Positions 535 to 49,046 of a stretch of DNA of 64,000 bases are shown piece by piece. The DNA is from Bacteroidales bacterium (GTDB taxonomy: Bacteria > Bacteroidota > Bacteroidia > Bacteroidales > Azobacteroidaceae): positions 1 to 64,000 of the forward strand of contig BHEP01000007.1 of assembly GCA_003851245.1 (NCBI GenBank). Direction: 5' to 3'. Each line of letters starts with the position of its first letter. Within the stretch, counting starts at the first letter, position 1. The position numbers and the translations under genes are program-made. The notes beneath the pieces were generated by a model. It saw nothing but the letters and a program-made list of their open reading frames with translations. It ran no database searches and had not been told where the DNA came from.

Positions 535-1593
535 TTAAAATGCCTCGCCTATTCTAAAATATAGGCCCCAATCATCCTTACCTGTTGCTACATCTATGCC
601 AACATTGATATTGCGAGATGGAATGGTTTTGTATCTGACGCCTACGCCAATGGCAGGAAGTAGACTGCTGCTCCCTTTTGGAGAATTGGTAATTGCGAGA
701 CCCGCAAATCCAACCAATCCAAACTTTTTGTAAAAATTCCATCTGTCTTCTGCTTGTATGGCATATACCTGCTCGTCTCTGTATTTTCCTTCGCTGTATC
801 CTCTGAGATCTTTTGATCCAACTACAGAAAGTCCTTCAAAAGGAATTTTGCTGCCAATGGCTGCTTTGGCAAAGATGCGGGCTGCTAAAACATTAAATTT
901 GTTGATAGAATGGTAGTAGTTGGTATAGAAATTAAGCTTGGTGTATGGATTTGCATTTTCTGACTTATTTAGGTAGTGATAGGTGGTAATGCTTGCATGA
1001 ATTCCTCTTGAGGGATTGTATATATTGTTTCGTGTGTCGAGCATGGCGTTAAAGCCAAAAGCATTTTGATTTTGCTTGGTATTGGCCGCAGAATCTATGG
1101 AAGACAAATCGAACTCGGTCTTGGCATTGGCGAGCTGCATATTTGCCCCCAAATAGAGTCTTTGGTACACTCTTCGATATCCCATAGCAGCCACAAAGTC
1201 TATTTTTGTATTGAATGGCACCTCAAAATCGCCCATTCCCGGCATACTCATAAAGGTCTGAAAATTGTTATTGGAATGCCCCAGGGCAAACTCAATTCTC
1301 CAATTGTCCTGATCTAAAAATAGGGATTGACCCACCACTCCAAACCAAGATTTGTTGGTCGAATAGCTTCCCACCATTGCTGTCATAGAAGGAGGAGATA
1401 CCTTATCTTCTTTTTTGAGATTGTAAATAGCCGCTGCCATGAAGCCTACACCGAAGCCTTTGGATAAGTTGAAGGATAGCATAGGAATGGCTGTGTAATT
1501 GACATTCTTGTCAATTGGTATGCTGTCTTGCGAAAAACTGTTTTGCAAAAAAATAATGCAAAAAATGATACTTAGTTTAATTTTGAAAGTCAT
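535..1593 (-). CDS. BamA/TamA-family (Omp85-like) outer membrane beta-barrel protein
   Basis: A 352-residue protein with an N-terminal signal peptide (about residues 1-21, cleavage after NSFS) and then alternating amphipathic beta strands to a C-terminal aromatic residue (GEAF). Around residue 262 it has LRGYSEGKYRDEQ, which matches the RGY-type motif of the Omp85/surface antigen D15 barrel. The usual POTRA domains are absent, so it is a barrel-only member rather than BamA itself. It probably sits in the outer membrane; its substrate is unknown. It stands alone between two fragments of the ATPase/nuclease family. No clear promoter of the TTTG/TAnnTTTG type was found upstream. Confidence 0.75.
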   Translation of the reverse strand: MTFKIKLSIIFCIIFLQNSFSQDSIPIDKNVNYTAIPMLSFNLSKGFGVGFMAAAIYNLKKEDKVSPPSMTAMVGSYSTNKSWFGVVGQSLFLDQDNWRIEFALGHSNNNFQTFMSMPGMGDFEVPFNTKIDFVAAMGYRRVYQRLYLGANMQLANAKTEFDLSSIDSAANTKQNQNAFGFNAMLDTRNNIYNPSRGIHASITTYHYLNKSENANPYTKLNFYTNYYHSINKFNVLAARIFAKAAIGSKIPFEGLSVVGSKDLRGYSEGKYRDEQVYAIQAEDRWNFYKKFGLVGFAGLAITNSPKGSSSLLPAIGVGVRYKTIPSRNINVGIDVATGKDDWGLYFRIGEAF

Positions 1594-1942
1594 TCTGTAA
1601 TATAATTATGTGCTTAATTTATAAGGCCTCTAAAATGAACTTTTTTTGACGCGCTCAAGACTGATGAAGAAGGGATTTTGCCTTTGTAAACGACCCTTTT
1701 GAATAAGATATTGGGGTGAAAATAGCAACAAAATTGTTATGTATATATCCTAATCAATGGTGAAGTTAGTAATTAATTTCTTTCTTAGAATTAATTTCAA
1801 GTAAAATTCACTATTTTATTGTAATTATGGCTTTTAAAATACTACAAATAGTTCTAATTTAGGTTTTAGTTCTTAACACTTGCATTGAGTCTCATTTTTC
1901 AATTATTATACCTGTTCACTTTTCGATTATTATATACATATG
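1594..1942. other. Noncoding AT-rich gap with a two-copy 24-bp repeat
   Basis: No gene is seen in this 349-bp stretch. Near its right end a 16-bp segment (TTTTTCAATTATTATA, 1895-1910) recurs with two changes at 1919-1934, a period of 24 bp. It lies directly before the point where homology to the left-hand ATPase/nuclease fragment starts. Confidence 0.5.
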
Positions 1943-2183
1943 CCTTCATCCCGAGATGCTTTATAGCTATATTGTGGAAATAAAATACCTCAAAAGAGAT
2001 GCTAAAGATATTGATATTGCCAAAATGCAAAACGAAGCTAGCGAGCAGCTACGCCGCTATGCTGCCGACCCCAAGGTGGGAGCCTCATTAGGCAATACCC
2101 AACTTAGATTGGTAGGTGTGATAATGAAAGGATGGGAGGTAATAGATAGTTTTGAGCTACCGCAACCCAAAGAAGAGGCTTAG
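1943..2183 (+). pseudogene. Second fragment of the ATPase/PD-(D/E)XK nuclease-like family (C-terminal end)
   Basis: Positions 1943-2093 repeat positions 242-392 with only a handful of mismatches. The frame then continues with GNTQLRLVGVIMKGWEVIDS and ends in PQPKEEA, which looks like the natural end of the family. It has no N-terminal part: the upstream sequence is unrelated AT-rich DNA, and the first ATG (1956) lies inside the conserved domain. It is therefore a 5'-truncated remnant, not a working gene. Together the two fragments suggest recombination between members of a multicopy gene family. Confidence 0.65.
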
Positions 2184-2276
2184 ACATTTTGCTAAAAAAA
2201 TGATACTCTACAGAATGATACTCAACATTGTCAAGTCGGCAATATGCTCTACTTAAGTAACTTTAAAAAGCTGAAA

Positions 2277-5108
2277 TCACTCCACTACCAGCCAAGTATA
2301 TCCTTGAGCAGGAATTTCAAGCTCGACTTCAATACAAGATTGATTATCCAAAAGATAGGTTTGAGGTTTTTGTTCCTGCTCCCTAACTGATGCTGTTTTA
2401 GATATTCCTGTGTAGTAGAGGGGTAGTTTGATGGTTTTTGTAATGCTTGTTTTTGTGGGATTATAAAGCATGACAAATCCTTTTTCTGCCAATTCGGGGT
2501 TGACGTGCATGATTCCATCATAATCTTTTCCGTCGGGTCGGCGAAGATGAACAATTTCGCTATTGAGTATATCCCTGTATTTTTTGTACCATTCTATAAC
2601 CTCAATAACCGTTTGCTTTGTTTCTGGACTGTCGTACAAACGATGTCCTCGATAACAAGCTTGTACGCCCGTACCATAGTTTTGTATTTGATGTGCCTTA
2701 TAGTCTTTCAGATGATCTTTTAGGGGCTCTAAGGTTGCGGCCGCTCCTCCTCCATGGTATTCGGTAAGCGGCACAAATGTCCAGCACATGCTAGGCAATC
2801 GTTCCCAAAGTCCATCATACATCACCTGTCGGCCTAATACCAACTGCCGTTCGCGAGGCAAAGACCAATTTACCTCACGGTAGCCAATACCTACTTTGGT
2901 ACTTCCATTTAATATATATCCAAAATCGGGCACGTTGGTATAAATTCCTTGTTCGCACATCCAGGTGTATAGATCTACAATTTGCTTGCGCTGTTCCCAC
3001 TGCGAATCAAGCAATCCTTTGTGGTGGGCATGCTCTGTTGAGGCGCATACATTGCCTGGGTATGAGCCATCATTCTCAAAGACAGTCATTCCTGTTTTCT
3101 CAAAGAAGCTCTTTATTTTTCTAAAATAATCAAAGCCCCATTCGCTCGATAGGCAGGGCGAACTGCCGAATATCATTCCTCCTCTTTTGCCCGTTTGGGG
3201 GTTTATTACATCTATACTATCACTTATCCAGCGGCTAGAGAGCAGGGAGTAGCCCCCAAGTTCAATGCCTTTGCTGTTGGCATATTGACGCATTTCTCGA
3301 AACTTTGCAATATTGTCCACACTTTCATTTTCCATACTAAGGCCTGAACCAAAGCTCAAAATAATCATCTCGTAACCTGTTGCCGCACATTGATCCACGG
3401 CCTCCCTTACCACCTTTGGATCGGAGGATGTGCAGTGCATAAAGATGGGGTTTTCGGTTACCCAAGGAGCTATTTTCTTGTACATTCGTTGCACAAACAA
3501 GCCCTTACGTTCGCGTTGTTCGCTATCGAAGGGCATCATCCAATTGCGAAATGTTGTAAAACCCTTACCCGAAGGGATAGATACATCGGGACCCATGGGT
3601 AATTTGATATTTAATAGGCAGGGGGTAAGCAGGGGGTAATTGCATTGCGAGGTATAACGAGGATCTACGTCCCAAAACTCTGTACGCTCGGATTCTTTCT
3701 CTGTAAACCCTAGAAAGGCCCAATCACTTTCAAGATGAATGTTGGGCTTTAAGAACTGATGGCTCTCTTTGGTTTCTACGGGAGAATCAGGTTCTACCAT
3801 AGCCAATTGCTCGAGATTAAACTCATCCAAATTAATCTCCATTCCTGTGTTGTTTTCTATTTCAATCCACTTGCTTATACATGGCAATCCATCATATAGC
3901 GCATAATTTATTTTAACCCTTACATTCTCCAAAACTTCTGGCCCCTTGAGAATAAATGTGAGTAAGCAACCCTCTTCAGGAGCTTTTTTGACAAGCGACC
4001 ATCTTTTGTTTGGCCAATTGATTCGTGGACTCAGCTCACCGACTTCAAAATCTACAACTTGAAACGAATTGGGCAAAGCCTGCATCTTATCTACCCAATC
4101 AAACATCGTATAGCCAAACTCTTCTTGCCCTGCCAGACCTCCTAGGGAGTATATTTTCCCATCAATTTTCAATATACCCTCACTGCTTACAGCCCGCAAG
4201 AGCGTTTGCCCTGTCATCTGATTTGAAAGATCAATGGTTGCCAAATTGGGAGTTATTCTAAACACCCGCGACACCAATCCATTGGTAAGTACTATGCTTT
4301 TTTGATCGTGGGTTTGCAAGACTTTTGCCTTTGCTCTTGAGGCATCCAACAGCCAGTCGTACCGAACATTGGGAAGAGGAAGTTGAATGGCACTTAGGCG
4401 AGAGACCTTGTCGTGAATATGCTTTTGGGCCTGTTTGTCGACCACTCTATTGGCCTGCACGTAATGAGCTTCCACAAGTTGGGGTTTAATTTCTGAGTAC
4501 GCAAACTGGGCATTCATCCAGTTGCCAAAATCGCCACTCGAACCATCGCCAGCATCTTGGCAAATCAAATCTATTACATTGATGCCTCGTAGGTCTAAGT
4601 TTACTGATTTTACTGCCTCATTCCCCCGCATGGTTCCACTATTAAAAACCTCCTTCCCATCGGCAATAATTTTGAACACAACACTCCCCTTCTCTACACT
4701 GCCATTGCCACTGCCAATACCTAAAAATTGTTTGCTCTTTTTAATATTGTCGGTTTGATAAAACATCATACTGCCATCGGTGAGAGGCACGGCAGAAATG
4801 TTGTCGGATTTATAATCAATATCATTGTCATTTACTCCCACCTTGCATTCAAAGTGCTGCACGTTATTTGCAAGAAATATGCGTATTTGAGAATTGGCAT
4901 AAACACCCACCCCATGATCGAAAGTTTGTCCCAAGACCTTGAACGGAGCTCCGTTTGCAGCCCTATTCTTGAGCGGCGAGGAATATTGTTGGTAAGCTCT
5001 GTCAAGTTCTAATTCGGATAGCTTGATTGTTGTACCTTGTCCTTTGAGCATAGCTACAGGACTCAAAAGGATGAATAAGGCGAGAATTAGTTTGATTTTC
5101 ATAAGCAT
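2277..5108 (-). CDS. NPCBM-domain glycoside hydrolase (alpha-galactosidase-like superfamily), secreted
   Basis: A 943-residue protein with a signal peptide (about residues 1-24). Residues about 28-205 form an NPCBM/NEW2-type carbohydrate-binding module (FDHGVGVYANSQI, VGVNDND). A beta-rich domain of about 250 residues follows, then a TIM-barrel-like region (about 500-800). The segment TVFENDGSYPG near residue 680 could hold a catalytic Asp as in GH36/GH27-like enzymes, and GYEMIILSFGSG looks like a barrel strand. A small C-terminal beta domain ends in YTWLVVE. The exact GH family and the substrate cannot be fixed by eye. It is the only evident glycosidase in the utilization locus and lies last in it, 126 bp after the thioredoxin-like gene. 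The overall layout follows clan GH-D enzymes, but the catalytic acid was not identified. Confidence 0.7.
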   Translation of the reverse strand: MLMKIKLILALFILLSPVAMLKGQGTTIKLSELELDRAYQQYSSPLKNRAANGAPFKVLGQTFDHGVGVYANSQIRIFLANNVQHFECKVGVNDNDIDYKSDNISAVPLTDGSMMFYQTDNIKKSKQFLGIGSGNGSVEKGSVVFKIIADGKEVFNSGTMRGNEAVKSVNLDLRGINVIDLICQDAGDGSSGDFGNWMNAQFAYSEIKPQLVEAHYVQANRVVDKQAQKHIHDKVSRLSAIQLPLPNVRYDWLLDASRAKAKVLQTHDQKSIVLTNGLVSRVFRITPNLATIDLSNQMTGQTLLRAVSSEGILKIDGKIYSLGGLAGQEEFGYTMFDWVDKMQALPNSFQVVDFEVGELSPRINWPNKRWSLVKKAPEEGCLLTFILKGPEVLENVRVKINYALYDGLPCISKWIEIENNTGMEINLDEFNLEQLAMVEPDSPVETKESHQFLKPNIHLESDWAFLGFTEKESERTEFWDVDPRYTSQCNYPLLTPCLLNIKLPMGPDVSIPSGKGFTTFRNWMMPFDSEQRERKGLFVQRMYKKIAPWVTENPIFMHCTSSDPKVVREAVDQCAATGYEMIILSFGSGLSMENESVDNIAKFREMRQYANSKGIELGGYSLLSSRWISDSIDVINPQTGKRGGMIFGSSPCLSSEWGFDYFRKIKSFFEKTGMTVFENDGSYPGNVCASTEHAHHKGLLDSQWEQRKQIVDLYTWMCEQGIYTNVPDFGYILNGSTKVGIGYREVNWSLPRERQLVLGRQVMYDGLWERLPSMCWTFVPLTEYHGGGAAATLEPLKDHLKDYKAHQIQNYGTGVQACYRGHRLYDSPETKQTVIEVIEWYKKYRDILNSEIVHLRRPDGKDYDGIMHVNPELAEKGFVMLYNPTKTSITKTIKLPLYYTGISKTASVREQEQKPQTYLLDNQSCIEVELEIPAQGYTWLVVE

Positions 5109-6794: not shown

Positions 6795-6842
6795 ATAATA
6801 TAAATAAAGATTTAGACTAGCCTAAATCTTTATTTATATTAT
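6795..6842 (-). terminator. Long perfect hairpin between the SusE-like and TlpA-like genes
   Basis: Two perfectly complementary 21-bp arms (6795-6815 and 6822-6842) enclose the loop ACTAGC. The stem is nearly all A/T, and the 3' arm on the minus strand is rich in U. It lies 8 bp after the susE-like stop codon and may attenuate, stabilise or end the upstream transcript. Confidence 0.6.
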
Positions 6843-27148: not shown

Positions 27149-27204
27149 GCTCAATATTAAATAATAAAGCTATCAAAACTCATAATAAATTTTGATAACT
27201 TGTT

Positions 27205-27255
27205 AAATACAAAAATCCCCAGGTAAATAAATTTTACCTGGGGATTTTTGTATTT
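27205..27255. terminator. Bidirectional terminator between tsf and maeB
   Basis: Perfect 23-bp arms (27205-27227 and 27233-27255) around a five-base loop, with the GC core CCCCAGGT and flanking A5/T5 runs, sit between convergent genes. Both strands read as stem plus U-tract. Confidence 0.9.
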
Positions 27256-27292
27256 AAACTTAGCCCTCAACCCTCATTGAGATTATATAAGA

Positions 27293-29805: not shown

Positions 29806-30716
29806 ATGAAAAAAATAAAAGAAATCACACTATTCACCAATGGCGACTCTAATGACCTCAGTGTTTTTTCAAACGTACCCTATTTTTTTGCTCAAACACT
29901 AATTTCAAAAGGAATTAAAGTAAACAGAGTTGATATCGGAATATCAAAAAAAATGGAGAACCCGATTTTCTTGAAAAGCAAACCATCAAACGTGAGGATT
30001 CAAATATAGAAAATGCAGATCTTGTTTTCGTTTTATTTCCAAGCATTACCCAATATATGAAAGAGCAGTATTCAAACAAAAATATTAACTACATCGGAAA
30101 TGTTATTAATGCAATGGAGCAACCCTCAAAAGCAAATATTACTGCTCAAAAAAACAAATCCAACAAGCTGCTTTTTATTGGCAATAAGGCATACAAAGAA
30201 GGTGCAGAATGCCTTATAAAAAGTTTCGCATCCCTAAAAGCGCACTATTACGACCTAACACTAGACATCATTGGAATGCAGGAAAGCGATTTTACAGAAT
30301 TGCCGCAAGGCGTTTGCTGTCACGGATATTTAAACAAGGGAAATGAAAACGATCTAAATATATTTTACGAGTTGATGCGCGAATCTAAGATATTTATCAA
30401 TACAACACCCAAATGGGGTGCTTTTTCTGCTACCTTAGAAGCCATGTATTTTTATACGCCAATTATTATAAGTCCTTACAAAGAATTTATTGAAACATTT
30501 GGCCCGCATATTGATTTCGGATATTTTTGCGAATTAAATCAAACAGTATTATTGACTGAAAATATAAAAATAATTTTAGACCTCCCTTACGAAAAATTCG
30601 ACAAATTATGTGTTAACGCACATTCGGCTGTCGCAGACTATAGTTGGGCTAATTATATTGACAAATTCTTAGAAAAAACAGAATCCCTTATAATAGAAAA
30701 AGAGATGCACAGATAA
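29806..30716 (+). pseudogene. Glycosyltransferase family 1/4, frameshifted at an A8 tract and probably internally deleted
   Basis: The first frame (29806-30009) encodes KKIKEITLFTNGDSNDLSVFSNVPYFF, in two parts a GT-B N-terminus, and stops early. A second frame reads ENADLVFVLFPSITQYMKEQY upstream of 30057 and on to 30716; GAFSATLEAMYFYTPIII is a donor-binding C-terminal motif. The frames are joined by a one-base shift at A8 (29946-29953): nine A's would restore one reading of about 304 residues. That is shorter than the usual 370-400 of such enzymes. The segment between VDIGIS and PDFLEKQTIKRED seems missing, so a deletion ending at the A-tract is likely. Sequencing error or slippage cannot be excluded. 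Confidence 0.75.
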
Positions 30717-30741
30717 GCTCCGTACATCTCTTTTTCTATTA
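30691..30741. terminator. Hairpin overlapping the end of the broken glycosyltransferase gene
   Basis: TAATAGAAAAAGAGATG (30691-30707) is the perfect complement of 30725-30741. The left arm encodes the last residues (IIEKEM), and the stop codon is in the 17-base loop. It lies between convergent genes and may stop transcripts from both sides, with the U-run inside the stem. Confidence 0.65.
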
Positions 30742-30780
30742 TTGGGCTTAATTAAACCTATTATTTTAAATACTGATACT

Positions 30781-34195: not shown

Positions 34196-34238
34196 ATAAT
34201 AAAAAAAGCTCAACAAATTGTTGAGCTTTTTTTATTAT
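34196..34238. terminator. Bidirectional terminator between the PDZ-like gene and gapA
   Basis: Perfect 21-bp arms (34196-34216, 34218-34238) with core GCTCAACAA and A7/T7 flanks. A symmetric stem plus U-tract serves both convergent genes. Confidence 0.9.
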
Positions 34239-46357: not shown

Positions 46358-47527
46358 TTATTGTGCAGTCATAATAACAACACGGTTCCAATTGTTTTCT
46401 GGATAAGGCTGTTCGTCAGAACCTTTCCATTCAACAACAATTTTTTCAGAAGGAATATTGTACTTGGCAGACAATTCTTTTGCAACAGCCTTAGCTCTTT
46501 GCTCAGAAATCTTCAAGTTATAACCCCCAGAACCTGTCTTTTTGTCGGCGTAACCAACAACCTTAATTTTTTCTCCTGTGTTCTTCATGAACTGAGCTGT
46601 GTTATAAACACTAATCTGTTGGTTAGCATCAATCTTAGCACTGTTCAATCTAAAGAATACAACATTTGGAACATAATTTATAGCAGAAGTAGTTGAAGGA
46701 GCAACTTTTGGACATTCTGGGCAACTTACTGGTCTCTTTGACAAAGCATCATTTTCAGAACGAAGACCATTGATTTTGCCATTCAAGTCATTAATCAAGT
46801 TGTAGTCCATGGGTTCTACTACTTCAAAGTTGGTCTTGCCCAATTTGAAAGTAAATCCCAATGTTGCAGCTGTGATACCTTCGTATTCTGCATTTTGAGT
46901 AATTCTGTCGAAGTAATCTGGCACCAATGCGCCTGCCAAATCTAAATCTAAATTAACTCTCTTACTCAAACGAAAGCCAAACATCAAACCAGTATTCATG
47001 CTTATAACATTTGAATAACGGCCATAGTTGTAAGGGAGATCTAAGTCAGAAGGTATTGTTTGGTCATTTTGCATTCTATGTGCAAAACCTAATCCTAAAT
47101 AAGGAACAAAGCTGAAAAACTTGTTCTCATTATATTTACCCCAATAGTTGGTTAGATCCCACATAGCATCCATATGGACATTGTAGTATCTGTCGTGTTG
47201 CATGAAATTACCATGATTTTCAACTCCATGTAAGGAACCTCCCTGCCCTTTTAAGCGCACTCCCCAATAAGGACTAAACCATTTACCTACAGATAGCGTT
47301 GGTGCAACAGTCATTCTGTTCATCAACTCACCATCCATGTCATGATCTCCAAAAATCGTTTGTGCCCCAACTCCCAAATGTATAAACCAGTTGTCACCAG
47401 CTTTATTACGTTTGAAACTAGTCTTGTAGCCAGCATCTTGACTCGCAGTAGGAGCCTTAGCATCCTGAGCAAATGCATAAGCGGTGAAGCTTAACAGTAA
47501 ACTTGCAAGGAAAATTTTTACTTTCAT
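46358..47527 (-). CDS. OmpA-family outer membrane protein
   Basis: A 389-residue protein with signal peptide (cut after AYAFA). The N-terminal eight-strand barrel (about 40-235) is followed by a short linker with two close Cys (VSCPECPKV). The OmpA-type peptidoglycan-binding domain is about 280-389 (VVFFRLNSAKID, ISEQRAKAVAKELSA). It ties the outer membrane to the cell wall and is probably abundant, given the near-perfect promoter upstream. It lies between two polysaccharide gene groups but is transcribed alone. Confidence 0.93.
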   Translation of the reverse strand: MKVKIFLASLLLSFTAYAFAQDAKAPTASQDAGYKTSFKRNKAGDNWFIHLGVGAQTIFGDHDMDGELMNRMTVAPTLSVGKWFSPYWGVRLKGQGGSLHGVENHGNFMQHDRYYNVHMDAMWDLTNYWGKYNENKFFSFVPYLGLGFAHRMQNDQTIPSDLDLPYNYGRYSNVISMNTGLMFGFRLSKRVNLDLDLAGALVPDYFDRITQNAEYEGITAATLGFTFKLGKTNFEVVEPMDYNLINDLNGKINGLRSENDALSKRPVSCPECPKVAPSTTSAINYVPNVVFFRLNSAKIDANQQISVYNTAQFMKNTGEKIKVVGYADKKTGSGGYNLKISEQRAKAVAKELSAKYNIPSEKIVVEWKGSDEQPYPENNWNRVVIMTAQ

Positions 47528-47634: not shown

Positions 47635-47666
47635 AAAAAGACACAAAAAATGAATTTATAAGGTAC

Positions 47667-47763
47667 GAGTCCACTCCTAAAAGTCTTTTTCCGAGGAAAC
47701 AACCGACTCACAAGTCTTGTAGAGGAATCTAAACTGGCCAAAAGGCCTTTTAGGAGTGGACTC
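47667..47763. repeat. 97-bp element with perfect 17-bp terminal inverted repeats
   Basis: GAGTCCACTCCTAAAAG (47667-47683) is the exact reverse complement of 47747-47763. The 63-bp interior contains small palindromes: GGCC-AAAA-GGCC next to the right arm, and ACAAG-TC-TTGT. It encodes no protein. It may be a small mobile repeat, a structured RNA, or the end of the gmd-side transcript. It stands 33 bp upstream of the ompA-type promoter. Confidence 0.6.
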
Positions 47764-47894
47764 AGATATATATATATTTACATAAAAATGAAGACTTGTA
47801 TATACATGATAACATTTTTTCAATAACATTAACCTACAAACTAGTCATTGAATATCATATCAAAAAGCGTGCCGTTGTATCAAAATATGTAAAA

Positions 47895-49046
47895 TTATTC
47901 AAAATGATCTAAAATTATATAGCCTCCCTCTTTCAAGTAAGCCTCTTTTTTCATCTCGCGAATATCAGATTCCATCATATCTTTGACCAGCAAGGGTAAA
48001 TCATAATCTGGAATCCAACCCAATTTAGTCTTAGATTTGGTAGCATCTCCAATAAGCAATTCTACCTCCGTGAGTCTAAAATATTGAGAATCGACCCTAA
48101 CAACAACCTCTCCTAGTCTTTTCTTAAATGATTCCAGACAGGACACACCCATCTTCTCTTCAAAAAGAGACTCCTTGATTCCTGCTATAAATCCTTTTTC
48201 TTCTAAACCTACGCCTTTAAATTCAATTTCAACACCGACTTCCAAGAAAGACATGCGAATAAAGTCCCTAATAGTTGTGGTTACTCCTGTAGCAATAACA
48301 TAATCGTCAGGGGCATCTTGCTGCAAAATGAGGTACATAGCTTTTATATAGTCTTTGGCATGCCCCCAGTCTCTTTTACTGGACAGATTGCCCATAAAAA
48401 CTTGATCTTGCATTCCCAAAAGAATACGAGAAACGGCCCTTGTCACTTTTCTTGTTACGAAAGTTTCCCCTCGCAAAGGAGATTCGTGATTAAAAAGAAT
48501 GCCGTTGCTTGCGTGCATCCCATAGGCTTCCCTATAATTGACGGTAATCCAATATGCATACATTTTAGCCACAGCATAGGGACTGCGTGGATAAAATGGG
48601 GTTGTTTCTTTTTGTGGGACTTCTTGCACCAAGCCATACAATTCGGATGTTGATGCCTGATAAATTCTTGTGTTTTGAATCAGGCCCAAAAGTCTAACGG
48701 CCTCCAAAATACGCAAAGTACCTAATCCATCAACATTTGCAGTATACTCTGGAGTATCGAAACTTACTTTTACATGACTCATTGCTGCCAAATTATATAT
48801 CTCGTCGGGCTTTACCTCGCCAATAATTCTGGTTAGATTCATTGAGTCTGTTAAATCGCCATAGTGAAGAATTAAATTTCTTTGTTCTACATGAGGGTCT
48901 TGATAAAGGTGGTCTATCCGGCTTGTATTAAAAGAGGATGCCCTCCTTTTAATACCATGCACAATATAGCCTTTTTTGATTAAAAACTCGGCCAAATAGG
49001 CACCATCTTGTCCTGTAATTCCTGTTATTAAAGCTACCTTTCCCAT
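47895..49046 (-). CDS. gmd: GDP-mannose 4,6-dehydratase
   Basis: A 383-residue short-chain dehydrogenase-type enzyme. It has [49 protein letters not shown] and the catalytic [10 protein letters not shown] (YxxxK). It turns GDP-mannose into GDP-4-keto-6-deoxymannose, the first step to GDP-L-fucose. The next enzyme, fcl, is encoded 3 bp upstream in the same unit. Length and motifs are normal. Confidence 0.97.

Follow-up and report, generated by a model that had tools for sequence, protein, structure and literature searches.

The locus considered here, a 97-bp stretch with exact 17-bp inverted ends lying between two genes of a 64,000-nucleotide piece of Bacteroidales DNA (the window, meaning the whole piece analyzed), raises the question of whether it is a small nonautonomous mobile repeat, a structured RNA or an unusual termination stem, these being the three readings offered in the initial annotation. 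The comparisons described below indicate that it is almost certainly an old, gene-less MITE copy, which shares its ends with an IS1182-like DDE transposon and would have been moved in trans, leaving a 6-bp duplication.

The arms and the 63-bp core between them are as first described (Table 1), and the positions of the ORFs and of the promoter agree with the proposed setting after the gmd unit and upstream of the promoter of the OmpA gene. The claim that nothing else in the window resembles the element is likewise borne out, as a search of the window for exact 17-bp inverted repeats with loops of 40-400 bp recovers this one alone, versus none in each of 30 Markov-shuffled windows, and a third match of the 17-bp arm within 3 mismatches is absent from the window. 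The small palindromes noticed in the core do exist, but the majority are absent from other copies of the element. Neither the 97-bp element nor the related elements of 53-298 bp contain a transposase. Elsewhere in the window, 27203-27257 is a perfect inverted repeat of 25 bp around a 5-nt loop; this one and the comparable hairpins at positions 6795-6842, 30690-30742 and 34196-34238 are probably terminators.

Table 1. Coordinates of the element and its surroundings in the window, of related sequences elsewhere in the same genome, and of insertion sequences (IS) with comparable ends
Feature	Position	Strand	Remarks
97-bp MITE copy (whole element)	47667..47763	+	full-length copies elsewhere in genome, similarity ending at element ends
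Left terminal inverted repeat GAGTCCACTCCTAAAAG	47667..47683	+	order-wide conserved end; consensus GAGTCCACTCCGAAAAG
Right terminal inverted repeat	47747..47763	-	exact reverse complement of left
63-bp noncoding core	47684..47746	+	ACAAGnCTTGT palindrome kept in all own-genome copies and in G042
Left flank AGGTAC, probable decayed 6-bp target duplication	47661..47666	+	4/6 bases match right flank
Right flank AGATAT, probable decayed 6-bp target duplication	47764..47769	+	fits A....T
Bacteroidetes-type promoter of OmpA gene, TTTG-N20-TAAATTTG	47634-47603	-	outside element
OmpA-family outer-membrane gene, downstream, start 47527	46358..47527	-	ORF; name by sequence and initial annotation
GDP-mannose 4,6-dehydratase (gmd), upstream, stop 47895	47895..49046	-	ORF; name by sequence and initial annotation
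Second copy, window's genome	C32:16995-17092		92% identity to window copy
Third copy, window's genome	C26:25113-25210		89% identity to window copy
Fourth copy, window's genome	C1:25804-25901		86% identity to window copy
Transposase remnants, window's genome	C36:9378-9617; C1:25212-25454; C13:14729-15226		
Parent IS in L145 (G290:C36)	730-2652		1923 bp; ends GAGTCCACTCCGAAAAG and GAGTCTCCTCTGATAAC, perfect AAGATT duplication, 579-aa transposase
1829-bp IS with such ends	L179		AATGAT duplication
Related IS, three identical-scoring copies in single-contig genome G394	L175/L184/L188		duplications AAAGAT, AATATT, ATAGAAT
1296-bp element, left end as in L179	L186:849-2144		truncated transposase ORF

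In the genome from which the window comes (2.94 Mb in 118 contigs) the element is one of four copies, the remaining three being situated at other intergenic sites and showing 86-92% identity to it over the aligned length. When the four are aligned together with their flanks the similarity ends at the element ends; the other copies have mismatches in their arms, unlike the window copy. A whole-element search of 149 genomes recovered, besides the window's own, one genome of the same family (G042) with a 98-bp copy at 75% identity, and the element is thus not a single unconserved copy. The target-site duplication sought in the flanks is perfect in the C26 copy (ATTGTT) and is present in 6-bp form in the wider family; the window copy itself shows it at only 4/6 bases, as does the C32 copy (ATAATC/GTAATT), and the flanks of the C1 copy agree at 2/6. 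The window element is a relic, the flanks of which have decayed. A lone terminal repeat, carrying one mismatch, lies beside an ATPase-like gene in the same genome (G000:C42:20201-20217); a partner end was not found for it, and it is a broken element.

The ends define a family that extends across the order. A search of 393 genomes from the order, allowing at most one mismatch, detected GAGTCCACTCCGAAAAG in 79, which belong to 63 of 206 genera; the highest counts were 201 and 195 ends in a genome. The reversed pattern, run as a control on the same genomes, gave 2 hits in total. A contig scan with GAGTCCACTCCNAAAAGNCYTTTT recovered 67 loci, all from Bacteroidota, with Bacteroidales, Bacteroidia or Bacteroidetes in nearly every title; viral contigs gave no match. 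The elements bounded by these ends are mostly 95-230 bp in length, gene-free and intergenic, with several unrelated types of core: none of 82 lies inside a long ORF, versus 1411 of 2340 (60%) random segments. An exact 6-bp duplication flanks 43 of 95 non-redundant elements, as against 1.6 expected in shuffled pairings (the largest shuffle giving 7), and a 7-bp duplication flanks 7 of the 95. The duplications follow the consensus A....T, the left site beginning with A in 86/95 and ending in T in 89/95. Near-identical copies (e.g. 97-98%) occupy different sites. In separate observations, the end sequence was found at about 150 to 345 copies each in G149 (CAJAXK, bin-499), G153 (JAUVJB), G235 and G357, and many cores in bin-499 and other end-rich genomes are imperfect palindromes of the GCCACAAAGGCACAAAG / CCTCTGTGCCTCCGTGG type. 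At L043:716-944 a MITE with an ATTTAGT duplication lies beside an older, diverged end, apparently as a nested insertion.

The transposase was reached by way of loci that have one end only. The source is an IS of 1.8-1.9 kb with MITE-like ends, 6- or 7-bp duplications and a DUF772/DDE transposase of ~560-590 aa, and autonomous elements sharing the ends of the MITEs were found at L145, L146, L179 and L175/L184/L188, the stretch common to the parent IS and the MITEs being only about 20 bp of the end. The element at L186 is an apparent deletion derivative and possibly an intermediate between IS and MITE. The end is present in 11 of 13 transposase-carrying genomes versus 68 of 380 without the transposase (Fisher p = 7e-7, with genomes treated as independent). 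On the opposing side, many MITE-rich genomes showed no close transposase at the threshold applied, and no intact copy of the transposase was found in the window's genome; of the remnants there, the one on C13 begins about 100 bp inward of the end GAGCCTACTCCGAAAAG, which occupies C13:15323-15339. Another genome of the same family (G033) has a full-length relative of the transposase, at 46%, with the end GAGTCCCCTCTGAAAAC. Two other candidate sources were discarded: the insertion sequences at PF01609 (DDE_Tnp_1) loci in four genomes have different ends, and long end pairs in G153 and G151, considered as candidate insertion sequences, have no transposase between them.

Sequence profile comparisons of the L145 transposase recovered the Pfam DUF772 domain (PF05598, 1.2e-8, 35.3 bits against a cut-off of 23.1), with DDE Pfam models remaining sub-threshold. 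Three residues, D160, D371 and E487, are invariant in three aligned transposases, where they stand in motifs characteristic of this class of enzyme, and form a candidate catalytic triad recognized by motif only. The protein resembles the IS1182 family (NCBIfam NF033551) in a near-full-length transposase alignment (residues 22-528) that takes in DUF772 and the DDE-like region; however, it differs in scoring 94.6 bits, far below the 270-bit equivalog cut-off, and is therefore IS1182-related rather than a recognized member. The only ISNCY model that matched was NF033593, at 26.6 bits versus a cut-off of 325, and a plasmid search with the transposase recovered only distant haloarchaeal transposases at 25-29% identity (NZ_CP024045.1 and others). 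A candidate family for the parent IS is the ISDol1 subgroup of ISNCY, which we take to be similar in IS length and in its 6-7-bp duplications; our literature search found no paper with both ISDol1 and IS1182, and the mention of ISDol1 that it found was without its features. Tentatively, and with somewhat less than even confidence, we suggest that the parent transposase represents a Bacteroidales IS group of its own, apart from IS1182 and the described ISNCY subgroups, in which one conserved end drove MITEs of unrelated cores to swarm throughout the order, at over 100 copies in a genome, and in many cases to persist after the transposase was lost.

To judge from these sequences, the transposase of a full-length 1.8-1.9-kb IS, supplied in trans, would have bound the GAGTCCACTCC ends and carried the element to an AT-rich A....T site between genes, with production of the 6-bp duplication. 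In the window's genome the source IS has by now broken down into fragments and, given this decay, the four copies left there are probably relics that no longer move.

The alternative that the element encodes a structured RNA or a cis-regulatory leader draws on the fold of the transcript, a long stem containing hairpins whichever strand is read, which for each strand is stronger than that of shuffled sequences (z about -4.8 and -5.0), and on the fact that all four copies in this genome lie between co-directional genes in one orientation relative to them. However, any inverted-repeat element would fold likewise, and the strength of the fold follows from the element being of that kind. The orientation in the wider family, at 17 to 16, shows no bias; the consensus structure of the copies has an unfavorable covariation term (+2.2), with a double change in 1 of 35 pairs; Rfam gave no match at the gathering score or at E <= 1; and the dispersed copies bear target duplications. 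Moreover, the element lies upstream of the OmpA promoter and is consequently not part of the OmpA leader. These observations speak against the structured RNA first envisaged and render it highly improbable. The termination stem proposed alongside it fares no better: the element does have a long GC-containing stem and begins 132 bp past the gmd stop, as might suit an unusual terminator of the gmd transcript, but the region of the loop spans 63 nt, a T-tract beside the stem is absent, the terminator scan was empty, and family copies occur between convergent and divergent genes as well as between co-directional ones. We accordingly regard a terminator as very unlikely indeed.

A third alternative begins with a MITE and has it later co-opted, as an insulator, as a stabilizer of an mRNA 3' end or as an upstream element of the OmpA promoter. 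The position of the element, upstream of that promoter with its edge 32 bp away, the stable stem expected in a gmd read-through transcript and the still perfectly matched 17-bp arms would be compatible with such a role, whereas the arm mismatches of the other copies and the balanced orientation of the family members argue against it. Co-option thus appears unlikely, albeit less so than the RNA and terminator readings, and we infer that the element lacks a host function. The reading as a MITE copy sharing its ends with an IS1182-like transposon is the one that the dispersed copies, the order-wide family with its 6-bp target duplications and the autonomous parent with the same ends strongly favor, and the small nonautonomous mobile repeat of the initial annotation is upheld.

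Thus, the odd inverted repeat of the window proves to be an ordinary transposon relic. For a repeat that is abundant across Bacteroidales there are now ends, a target rule and a source transposase, with which annotators can mask or date copies, and, since MITE-rich genomes occur both with an intact transposase and without one, how MITE swarms arise and disappear can be tested in bacteria. A published description of this MITE family was not found, the five papers with the end string being non-bacterial as far as their titles and abstracts indicate; the family is new as far as the literature search reached, although its kind is well known. In Porphyromonas gingivalis, MITE239, MITE464/PgRS, MITE700 and BrickBuilt have ends matching those of IS5-family IS, GAGACC.TTGCA or ACGTCAGTTCGA (PMC4596501). 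Like these, the elements described here are short, noncoding and intergenic Bacteroidales elements, the inverted ends of which are common to transposase-bearing IS; unlike them, they are typified by the ends GAGTCCACTCCGAAAAG, a 6-bp A....T duplication and a parent with an IS1182-like DUF772 transposase.
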